Positions 7,327-18,129 of a stretch of DNA of 64,000 nucleotides are shown one piece after another. The stretch is taken from the NCBI RefSeq assembly GCF_001542815.1, contig NZ_CP006992.1, positions 3,911,501-3,975,500 of the forward strand, written 5' to 3'. Position numbers and translations under genes: made by a program. The notes beneath the pieces are model-generated. The model was not told the origin of the DNA. It saw only the letters and a list, made by a program, of their open reading frames with translations, and made no database searches. The DNA is from Methylobacterium sp. AMS5. Lineage in GTDB: Bacteria > Pseudomonadota > Alphaproteobacteria > Rhizobiales > Beijerinckiaceae. Within the stretch, counting starts at the first letter, position 1; each line of letters starts with the position of its first letter.

Positions 7327-7860
7327 ATGACCACGCCGCCAACTCACCTCGCGATCGACGAGGCACGCATACGGCTCCGGCGGCTTCGGCCGGCGGAGGC
7401 CGTGCGCCTCGGCGAGCTGGCCCGGGCCTGCGCGCGGAGTGTGGGCTCGGCAACGGAAGGCGCTGAAATCCTCAACGAGGCGATTGCACGGGTCCTCGAG
7501 GGCCGAAGGCGCTGGCCCGCAGATCTGCCGGTCGACGTCTTTTTCGCCGAGGTCATGCGCAGCATCGCCTACGAGTTGAGACAGCGCGCCTGGAGGGAGC
7601 CTTTCCTGGACGATCAAACGAATCCGGACGTCGCGGTAGATCCCGATCACCGAGCCGAGGTCGAGAGTGTCACCACGGCCGTTAGGCGCTCCTTGAAGGA
7701 TGATCCGCCAGCGCTCCGCCTCTTCGAGCTGGAGCTCGCTGAGATGACCTGCCCCGAGATCCAGCGCAAGCTCGGGCTCGACGCCACCGCTTACGACACA
7801 CTCAGGCGCCGGTTCCGGCGTCGCCTCCTAGCAGCCTTTCCGGACGGATACCCCCTATGA
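7327..7860 (+). CDS. ECF-like sigma factor / sigma-70-like regulatory protein
   Basis: A 177-residue protein with the two-part layout of a short sigma factor. Residues about 30-95 resemble region 2 (EILNEAIARVLEGRRRWP and MRSIAYELRQRAW). Residues about 135-172 form a region-4-like helix-turn-helix (EMTCPEIQRKLGL, then DTLRRRFRRRL). It could recruit RNA polymerase to this locus or act only as a DNA-binding partner. Its stop overlaps the helicase start (ATGA, 7857-7860), so it is translated with the next gene. The pairing of a sigma-like protein with a SNF2 helicase and a GHKL ATPase is unusual. Confidence 0.7.
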   Translation: MTTPPTHLAIDEARIRLRRLRPAEAVRLGELARACARSVGSATEGAEILNEAIARVLEGRRRWPADLPVDVFFAEVMRSIAYELRQRAWREPFLDDQTNPDVAVDPDHRAEVESVTTAVRRSLKDDPPALRLFELELAEMTCPEIQRKLGLDATAYDTLRRRFRRRLLAAFPDGYPL

Positions 7861-17300: not shown

Positions 17301-18129
17301 ATCCTACCTCGCAAATGGGGACATTGGCGTGGTAGTCGGGGGCTATCGGACGGCGAGAATGAAGTTCCGGCCCAGAGACTTAGAAGTCGAGTTCGCGAGC
17401 CAACCCGGGGTGAAATTCACGTACTATGCTGGCGAGTTCTCTGGTGAAGAGGGTTCCCCAGATCTCGAGCTTGCCTACGCGCTGACAGTGCACAAAACTC
17501 AAGGGAGTCAGTTTGGGCAATCGTACCTTGTTCTTCCGCGCAATTGCCGTCCGCTCTCGCGGGAGCTGCTCTACACGGCAATCACCCGGCACCAAGAGGA
17601 ACTCGTAATCCTTCACGAAGACGAACTTGGGACACTACGCCGGTACGCAGACCCGTCCGCTTCTGAAATCGCCCGCCGGATGACCGACCTGTTCACCAAT
17701 CCGGGCCCGGTTGAGGTCAAGACAAGTTCGGGGCCGCGCTTCCTCGATCGTCACCTTCTGCACCGAACGAGCCGGGGCGAGTTCGTTAGGTCGAAGTCCG
17801 AACTCGCTATAGCCGAAAAGCTAAACGGCATGGGCATCGCCTACGTATATGAGCAGCCTTTGTTGCTCGACGGCAAAACCCGCTGGCCCGACTTCACCAT
17901 CGCCGACGGCGAGTCGGGTGTCACTTATTACTGGGAGCACTTGGGTATGTTGTCGGACCCGCAATACACTGCGCGATGGCAGGCCAAGCGAGCCGCGTAT
18001 CTCGCGGCAGGTATCCGACCGATTGAGGAAAACGCGGGCGGGGACGTGTTGATCGAGACACGAGAGATTGCTGGTACTGGGCTTGATATGGGTGAGGTGG
18101 AAAGGTTGGCGAAGCTCATGACTCCTTAG
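14371..18129 (+). CDS. RecD-like superfamily 1 helicase with C-terminal PD-(D/E)XK-like nuclease domain
   Basis: A 1252-residue protein. The N-terminal part begins with VPWHDGGWNGRVC near residue 14, a Cys-containing motif of unknown role. The helicase core lies at about 635-1080: Walker A GPAGSGKTTLLK, Walker B IVDECSM, GDPRQLPPIGAG and the UvrD_C-type motif ALTVHKTQGSQF followed by LLYTAITRH. Residues about 1140-1200 show KSELAIAEKL, PDFTIADG and YYWEHLGM, the layout of PD-(D/E)XK nucleases fused to helicases. The ATG at 14371 has GGGAG 5 nt upstream; ATG 14341 and a TTG at 14323 are longer options. It is separated from the GHKL gene by about 210 bp and may have its own promoter. Confidence 0.75.
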   Translation: MISGSRKLPSQHVTIRVPWHDGGWNGRVCNSPSANTSCLVLSRIAAGKRDDQDKYAGQLFEHLPASVVPPCVDERVSFMADHDLVLKKQHPYKSSSPESHGHFGETTLRLEAFSAACIPFGWMLKSNVEGDDKSGEVGKAAALRLGYEPEREPELSFETGWVQDKANQLIMLDTFFGALKPEASLCFFYAKKTPLSESSSRVIIGAARVKGVGQYTEYAYDAPGDLKGVLWERCVRHSLRPGGTDGFLMPYYDVLAAANVDAGIPVEECVAFAPDDQFEAFSYGSEHLGHDGAIASLLACASALRASARVIETDTSSALAWIDREVARLWTARGIHPGLGSALKAFGLEHGALLAHEIASVGSREGEVFNAFSFIDGFVAAPKSFPQAEAFGFGSAYREKWRGLAEPRRQLLDLIARCSLTADQAIRAYQPSQRSYSEETTDAEILANPYLLFERDEAAADRTAFATIDRGIFPADAVRAKAPLPAATGMSDGIDRRRVRGLVTELLERAVQLEGHTLLPRSWIVRRAFDTPLEPRCAVDEDVLHMAAAHLAGTLEEVKTSGDEPALKLRRYGLARTTITNAVRKRVSGKRHALAHDWRALVDAALPEMENGPDTETEELARQEKTAALEQLASGRFSVLIGPAGSGKTTLLKVICDLPEIAAGRVLLLAPTGKARVRLEEATERLGEGMTLAQFLQRHERYDGLSGRYFRNPEAPREKGYRSVIVDECSMLTEDQLSALIDAIEGVERLILVGDPRQLPPIGAGRPFVDICRHLWPEDAKPKFPRVAPGYAELTIIGRQRGHDRGDVLLARQFSGEPLDAGADEVWDTLQRGMLSHVRTARWSLPSDLEPVLAKELVRGLKLADESDQIGFERSVGGSEWEGHILFWARRAGEAECGAAASSHNWQILSPIRAGLSGVDAINLAVQHRFRSKVRERAQTKYAKIPKPAGPQGVLWGDKVINLRNNGRRRTYPRQERSYLANGDIGVVVGGYRTARMKFRPRDLEVEFASQPGVKFTYYAGEFSGEEGSPDLELAYALTVHKTQGSQFGQSYLVLPRNCRPLSRELLYTAITRHQEELVILHEDELGTLRRYADPSASEIARRMTDLFTNPGPVEVKTSSGPRFLDRHLLHRTSRGEFVRSKSELAIAEKLNGMGIAYVYEQPLLLDGKTRWPDFTIADGESGVTYYWEHLGMLSDPQYTARWQAKRAAYLAAGIRPIEENAGGDVLIETREIAGTGLDMGEVERLAKLMTP

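Follow-up and report, generated by a model that had tools for sequence, protein, structure and literature searches.

Which genes of a recurring cluster make up one system, and what that system might do, is the question raised by a four-gene locus of Methylobacterium sp. AMS5. The locus occupies 7327..18129 of a 64,000-nucleotide stretch of contig NZ_CP006992.1 (the window, to which positions refer unless another locus is named) and encodes a sigma-like protein, an SNF2 translocase, a sacsin-type ATPase and a RecD-type helicase-nuclease, read in the original prediction as a single anti-phage or plasmid-control system. Comparison with related loci points to a 3+1 architecture, in which genes 1–3 appear to be a real, conserved unit without a name and gene 4 a recurrent but separable partner. 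What appears to be new is a putative sigma-led self-regulation and the exchange of an Hsp90-like sensor part, in a unit that is probably defensive.

Conservation of the unit and the place of the fourth gene

The four open reading frames (ORFs) lie in the predicted layout, with an overlap of 4 nt between genes 1 and 2 and a spacing of 2 nt between genes 2 and 3:

7327..7860, + strand: gene 1, 177 amino acids (aa), extracytoplasmic function (ECF) sigma-like protein with predicted sigma2 and sigma4 parts
7857..11078, + strand: gene 2, 1073 aa, SNF2/RapA/DrmD-like translocase
11081..14158, + strand: gene 3, 1025 aa, sacsin-type GHKL (Hsp90-like) ATPase
14323..18129, + strand: gene 4, 1268 aa from TTG, RecD-type SF1 helicase with a C-terminal PD-(D/E)XK-like domain (PDC-S68 of PADLOC)

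Comparing a gene 3 profile with the GTDB contig collection gave 332 stretches and 179 relatives, the best 80 of which were kept as 79 loci (L-numbers; genes called by longest-ORF heuristics). Relatives of at least 175 bits are termed close (54 loci) and the remaining 25 more distant. An SNF2 gene lies within 1.5 kb of gene 3 on the same strand in 51 of the 54 close loci, mostly a few nucleotides away; the exceptions are L031, where it lies downstream, and L023, L042 and L060, with gaps of 740–1421 nt. The other three close loci are truncated by contig ends and begin 0–118 nt before gene 3. Among the distant loci, SNF2 is adjacent in 6 of 25. The adjacent pair spans several bacterial phyla. Such pairing is above chance and supports the earlier claim that genes 1–3 act as a unit. 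In 12 of the 79 loci, all Alphaproteobacteria by record title, the pair is led by a sigma-like gene, and the same order occurs on three Ensifer/Rhizobium plasmids, which together with the window makes 16 sigma-led loci. Their SNF2 proteins form a single clade (15 rows, SH-aLRT 100) in a tree built by a quick method, with some long-branched rows and a midpoint root. The surroundings of the unit vary between loci. Two sigma-led copies, L003 and L016, occur in Rhizobium leguminosarum Tri-43, and their gene 3 proteins are just 32% identical.

Whole-genome tallies, all lower bounds with up to 8 or up to 2 first-look candidates scored per genome, find gene 3 in a single one of 99 relatives (up to 8 candidates) and SNF2 in a single one of the order's 397 genomes (up to 2), in both cases the strain's own, which has one gene 3 copy. 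In a class sample of 385 Alphaproteobacteria, the sigma gene was found in 5 (two weak), gene 3 in 5 and gene 4 in 2 (up to 2 candidates for gene 4). A genome scan using the sigma protein alone returned 95 pattern matches and no relatives, and the viral collection yielded one distant sacsin locus. In loci within the range L055–L080 (for example L078, 2111–13123), distant sacsin/TmtA-like proteins are opposed by three large, divergently oriented genes, encoding about 650, 900 and 930–990 aa. The trio recurs in several loci, each of its gene families being present in 7 to 12, and the group is possibly another system.

Gene 4 carries a RecD-type AAA domain (PF13604, 1.4e-28) and matches the PDC-S68 model over its full length (residues 25–1264 to positions 4–1216 of 1221, 1496 bits). 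Because this match begins only at residue 25, the true start is probably the ATG at 14371 rather than the TTG at 14323, which agrees with the gap of about 210 bp in the original prediction; the distance from gene 3 is 164–212 nt, depending on the start. Weaker PADLOC matches at the C-terminus are to PDC-S69 (1.6e-4 at 1145–1235) and HEAT_CxxC_PDDEXK (0.023). The PDF...WEH motif around residue 1189 is likewise consistent with PD-(D/E)XK; the C-terminal piece has no Pfam matches.

Counted at 200 bits or more, PDC-S68 adjoins the SNF2-sacsin pair in 8 of 57 SNF2-adjacent loci, besides the window. It lies downstream in L010, L020, L029, L033, L034 and L045, upstream in L024, and upstream and divergent in L030. 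In the SNF2 tree these loci are spread over distant branches, with the closely related L020, L029 and L033 representing one event; L049 has just a 41-bit fragment. Within the fetched flanks, PDC-S68 also stands without the other three genes in four cases, L096 and the plasmids L099, L103 and L104. L013 and L100 have a TM0106 RecB-like protein in fourth position instead, and the L100 copy contains PD-(D/E)XK, RNase-H-like and SF1 helicase domains. Because PDC-S68 occurs alone and these two loci carry the TM0106 nuclease instead, the comparison argues for a core of genes 1–3 with an interchangeable nuclease. The expected co-occurrence holds for genes 2 and 3, and a single unit of all four genes is not supported.

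The recurrence of PDC-S68 beside the pair in distant branches, set against at least 2 of 385 Alphaproteobacteria overall, and the travel of another nuclease gene within the conserved block of L013 and L100, would fit a true four-gene system in which the RecD-PD-(D/E)XK protein is the obligatory nuclease of the SNF2-sacsin machine, like a restriction nuclease subunit. We consider such a system unlikely. PDC-S68 of at least 200 bits is not beside the pair in 49 of the 57 loci (in some for want of flank), and the best plasmid-collection match to the window protein, the Rhizobium phaseoli copy in L099 (77.5% identical), stands without the pair. The gap before gene 4 also weighs against it, though neither a terminator-like nor a promoter-like site was found there; a copy of the bipartite element described below was looked for before gene 4 and not found. 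On a Sphingomonas plasmid (L102, 10309–23703), PDC-S68 adjoins a different helicase set: behind a PDC-S68-like protein encoded in two ORFs come a hypothetical protein of 1607 aa, a further protein of 799 aa and a DEAD/DEAH helicase.

Exchange within the sacsin-type protein

The core pairs two recognizable ATPases. Gene 2 has the motifs DEVGVGKT at residue 179, DEAH at 299 and QRIGRIDR at 673, and matches PF00176 (2e-17) and PF00271 (1.6e-18). Gene 3 matches the Pfam Sacsin family (PF25794, 1e-14) and has the N-box ELMQNAED, retained in 48 of 49 aligned sequences, and the loop IGCFGIGFKS. Its AlphaFold model (pLDDT 82, pTM 0.50) finds Hsp90/TRAP1 as best PDB matches with Foldseek, at E-values to 1e-11 and low TM-scores of 0.2–0.4. 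Two parts of this protein behave differently among relatives:

11081..13636, + strand: stretch matching the exchanged part of relatives, residues ~1–852, putative recognition part, placed by alignment
13637..14155, + strand: constant C-terminal ~170 aa, McrA-like histidine-less HNH zinc domain, core residues 912–970

No exchange is seen within the window itself. In some otherwise near-identical operons, DNA similarity drops abruptly over the front stretch. One case is provided by L013, on a Mesorhizobium chromosome, and L100, on an Ensifer plasmid, which are alike from about 360 nt before the sigma gene. In 60-nt windows their DNA is 85–92% identical up to the end of SNF2, 37–73% after the gene 3 start at 9983, and 70–97% from 12560 (residue ~859) to the gene 3 end; identity over 12547–16459, spanning the end of gene 3 and the whole TM0106 gene, is 92%. 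The proteins follow the same course, with 85% identity for sigma, 93% for SNF2, and 47%, 29% and 82% for gene 3 residues 5–111, 125–845 and 853–1010. L017 and L039, of a HEPN-type branch, show a comparable profile at the DNA level (83–98% to the SNF2 end, 40–78% inside gene 3, 75–100% from residue ~856) and in protein (SNF2 96%, gene 3 front 44%, C-terminus 92%). These pairs indicate two clean exchange events in separate branches. L016 and L032 are probable further events: L016 compared with L013 and L100 has 87% identity in SNF2, 24–25% in the gene 3 middle and 72–74% at the C-terminus, and L032 compared with L034 and L045 has 76–77%, 32–33% and 62–63%. Between L049 and L037 or L060 the change is weaker and gradual, and in L065 the C-terminus diverges as well. 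Overall, the gene 3 middle is at most 50% identical in 5 of 14 pairs with SNF2 at least 90% identical, and in 8 of 60 pairs at 80% or more, several of these exchange pairs sharing a locus and hence not being independent. Most simply, recognition would reside in the GHKL and middle parts, with the C-terminus remaining tied to the motor.

A profile built from the final ~180 residues of gene 3 matches the HNH domain of McrA (6ghc_A, 211–276, E 1.5e-7), and PADLOC reports mREase_IV at 1.3e-5; Pfam applied to C-terminal pieces gave weak mixed matches and no HNH. The zinc ligands are well kept, with Cys at 915, 918 and 954 in 48–49 of 49 sequences and C, H or D at 957 in 48 of 49. At the aligned His-His positions 936 and 937, however, His occurs in 0 of 49, with Glu at 937 in 41 of 49. 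An active HNH nuclease was therefore rejected: the C-terminus is probably not a nuclease because the catalytic histidine pair is missing, and loci with genes 1–3 alone would then have no recognizable nuclease.

The sigma-like gene, its upstream element and the HEPN alternative

Gene 1 is weakly recognized by hidden Markov models (NCBIfam TIGR02937, E 0.0039, 16.8 bits, below the cut-off of 42.9) and has no PADLOC matches. Its predicted structure contains both sigma2- and sigma4-like parts and has fold matches to sigma proteins, and its homologues are named sigma by source annotations. Together with a promoter-like element upstream, these features support its assignment as ECF-sigma-like:

7272..7298, + strand: putative self-regulated promoter, TTCCG (7272–7276), 17 nt, CGCAT (7294–7298), first base 55 nt before the gene 1 ATG

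A bipartite element of this type (TTCCC-N17-CGCAA, with a fixed 17-nt spacer) is present at all 16 sigma-led loci, 53–58 nt before the sigma start, with five of the sigma starts shifted by hand ahead of the test. The strict core TTCC-N18-CGCA occurs in 14 of 16 loci and in 10 of 11 less related ones; allowing one relaxed base per half gives 15 of 16, and the sixteenth, L100, reads ATCCC-N17-CGCAG. First-order Markov resampling (200 rounds) reached 4 of 16 at most, although the 16 loci are related and shared ancestry partly remains. None of 39 control regions has the element; these belong to SNF2 genes that lack a sigma gene and span up to 300 nt ahead of the SNF2 gene plus up to 600 nt of it, less where a contig ends. 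Its information content was taken from 11 of the 16 loci; an A nine bases after CGCA is conserved, flanking columns being mostly less so, and in the window a short A/T tract, AAAATT, lies upstream at 7256–7261. The window element is the top weight-matrix match in the 64 kb, though it was itself used in building the matrix, and the extended promoter pattern has 6 matches in the own genome compared with 1 in a backward control. Because the element stands at 16 of 16 loci with fixed spacing and resampling gives 4 at most, the comparison suggests a self-regulated promoter of the gene 1 operon, presumably used by the sigma protein. The proposal that the sigma-like gene gives self-regulated expression has thus gained strong comparative evidence. 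The other proposal, that this protein is the DNA sensor, appears less likely than a sensor role of the sacsin protein because the exchanged front part belongs to the latter.

Many SNF2 relatives without a sigma gene have a longer N-terminus, whereas sigma-led SNF2 proteins have just 60–90 residues there. In three of four proteins scanned, the extension is a Swt1-like HEPN domain (PF18731, up to 5.2e-18), the fourth, L010, having no Pfam matches in its extension. Of 39 SNF2 rows that lack a sigma gene, 28 contain the RNase motif R(N/D)(R/K)W(A/V/S)H and 11 do not, several of the latter being short or open at the start. A fused sigma domain in the longer SNF2 proteins of other phyla was accordingly rejected, since the extension, where identified, is Swt1-like HEPN. 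Sigma and HEPN thus appear to alternate between branches of the SNF2 family.

The overlap of gene 1 with the SNF2 gene, and its occupation of the place of the fused HEPN in others, could also mean that the sigma-like protein serves the SNF2 motor as an adaptor for DNA binding, as the sigma-type helix-turn-helix (HTH) in DndH and BrxL may do. Precedents are given in PMC10853773 and PMC12839542, which report this type of HTH in both proteins and describe HEPN acting as a backup effector. Yet both sigma parts are modelled and a sigma-type element precedes gene 1 at every sigma-led locus, and we give an adaptor role little credence. Slightly less likely still is that the element is an operator for another regulator, with gene 1 leading the operon by chance. 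Its halves do differ from the textbook ECF consensus, but its restriction to sigma-led operons, the upstream A/T tract, the rigid spacing and the conserved A fit a promoter.

Several relatives of the sigma-like protein occur elsewhere. Those in G093 and G420 lie apart from SNF2-sacsin, and in L095 a 199-aa relative (15310–15909, - strand) adjoins an ImmA/IrrE-like protein. On the opposite strand of L095, translations read as an apparent ubiquitin-like/E2/JAB/E1 gene set.

Proposed function and comparison with named systems

Relatives and neighbors make an anti-phage or plasmid-control function plausible. We compared 72 hand-picked neighbor proteins from 12 sigma-led loci with PADLOC; among the first 25 of 106 families, matches were to IetA (4), IetS (up to 4), QatA and QatC (2 each), PifA (2) and an Argonaute type (1). 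Other neighbors are metabolic or conjugation genes. The window itself has the predicted flanks, a conjugation module upstream (TrwC relaxase/helicase, 3–2837, - strand) and a type I restriction-modification (R-M) operon downstream (~19521–28498, - strand), of which HsdM (26358–27908) is part. Within this operon, HsdM is separated from a gene that matches HsdS below threshold by a Fic-family gene (25235–26341) and a DUF4357 gene (24175–25209). A mobile island is suggested by genes close to this operon, at 29369–35084, for an integrase of phage type (DUF6538) and two resolvase/recombinase-like proteins; no tRNA was found in the window by ARAGORN.

We moderately favor a mobile, unnamed anti-invader system with an SNF2 motor, an exchangeable sacsin sensor, its own sigma factor and promoter, and a companion nuclease. 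In such a system, the sacsin/Hsp90-type ATPase would be the sensor, its first ~855 residues being exchangeable and setting specificity, and the constant McrA-like zinc domain would be the likely docking part. The RapA/DrmD-like SNF2 motor would be the constant partner, acting on DNA or DNA-bound complexes once the sensor closes. In the alphaproteobacterial branch, the ECF-type sigma factor would lead the operon and drive its own promoter, so that expression could amplify itself, and the HEPN RNase domain fused to the motor elsewhere would be absent. A nuclease beside the core, here PDC-S68 and elsewhere the TM0106 RecB-like helicase-nuclease, may serve as an interchangeable effector or companion. 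Comparison establishes the conserved unit, the promoter-like element with its fixed spacing, an exchanged front part in some relatives, the missing HNH histidines, the alternation of sigma and HEPN, and a separable gene 4; defense function, sensor role, docking, use of the element by the sigma protein, trigger and nuclease cooperation are inferred. If the proposal is right, a two-subunit defense core extends across several phyla, split by PADLOC between the unrelated models DrmD and TmtA, and a sigma factor and promoter of its own can give a defense operon an inducible switch.

A more tentative possibility, which we regard as somewhat doubtful, is that the output is transcription itself. The Hsp90-like sensor and SNF2 motor would then hold and release a dedicated ECF sigma that replaces the HEPN RNase, giving a self-amplifying transcriptional alarm upon invader contact. 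A transcription or repair complex for stress recovery, built from a RapA-like motor, a chaperone-like ATPase and its own sigma, would suit the RapA likeness and the Hsp90-like fold, but is very unlikely given the sporadic presence, plasmid location, defense neighbors, front-part exchange and HEPN fusion in relatives.

PADLOC covered the four window genes against named systems, and with NCBIfam agrees that genes 1–3 as a whole match none of them, as predicted. On the scores of both, we rejected an assignment of the complete unit to DISARM, Tiamat, Hma/BREX-related systems or RapA. The SNF2 protein is closest to DrmD (PADLOC 1.3e-105, NCBIfam 1e-92) and matches the DrmA model more weakly (1.5e-49), but it is below the DrmD cut-off (NF038317, 312.1 bits versus 610), and DrmB/C or methyltransferase matches are absent among the four genes in PADLOC and NCBIfam. 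Sacsin, sigma and RecD proteins are not known as parts of DISARM. The original view that DISARM shares only the SNF2 type is therefore upheld. RapA, which works with RNA polymerase, is the closest solved SNF2 (7.8e-39) and shares the fold of gene 2, but the equivalog cut-off is not reached (NF003426, 195 bits versus 576, E 1.9e-57). For Hma and type-1 BREX-related systems, HmaA scores just 144 bits, and methyltransferase or DUF499 are unmatched among the four genes.

Gene 3 resembles TmtA of the Tiamat system and other sacsin-type ATPases in its N-terminal sacsin GHKL region (best 3.4e-46). The likeness is partial: no best stretch extends past residue ~550 of the 1025, the TmtA models having 1063–1782 positions, and the longest of them (residues 9–550 to 8–569 of a 1302-position model) falls short of full-length TmtA. 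In contrast to TmtA, gene 3 is paired with SNF2 in 51 of the 54 close loci and has the McrA-like C-terminus. Gene 4 is a full-length member of the PDC-S68 candidate, which here follows a sigma-SNF2-sacsin unit. The RNA-guided transcription complex of PDB 9n9q, whose chain is presumably an ECF sigma, likewise has a sigma fold acting with RNA polymerase, whereas a Cas protein is absent here.

A description of the sigma-SNF2-sacsin unit was not found in the open PubMed Central (PMC) literature, and a term search of the accessible portion of PMC12458937 did not return sacsin. The accessible part of one survey lists the fusion of Abi2/Swt1-group HEPN with a SWI2/SNF2 ATPase (Anantharaman 2013, PMC3710099). 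Other branches of the present SNF2 family carry such a fusion, but in that part a sacsin partner, a sigma factor and sensor exchange are not named.

The exchange itself invites comparison with type I R-M. In those systems the recognition part of HsdS is exchanged and the motor stays constant. Here, the exchanged part would be an Hsp90-like ATPase region, in a unit without a methyltransferase. The locus family thus provides a case in which the front of an Hsp90-type ATPase, rather than a DNA-specificity subunit, appears to be exchanged between near-identical operons, so that the target of the putative sensor could be found by comparing exchanged alleles.

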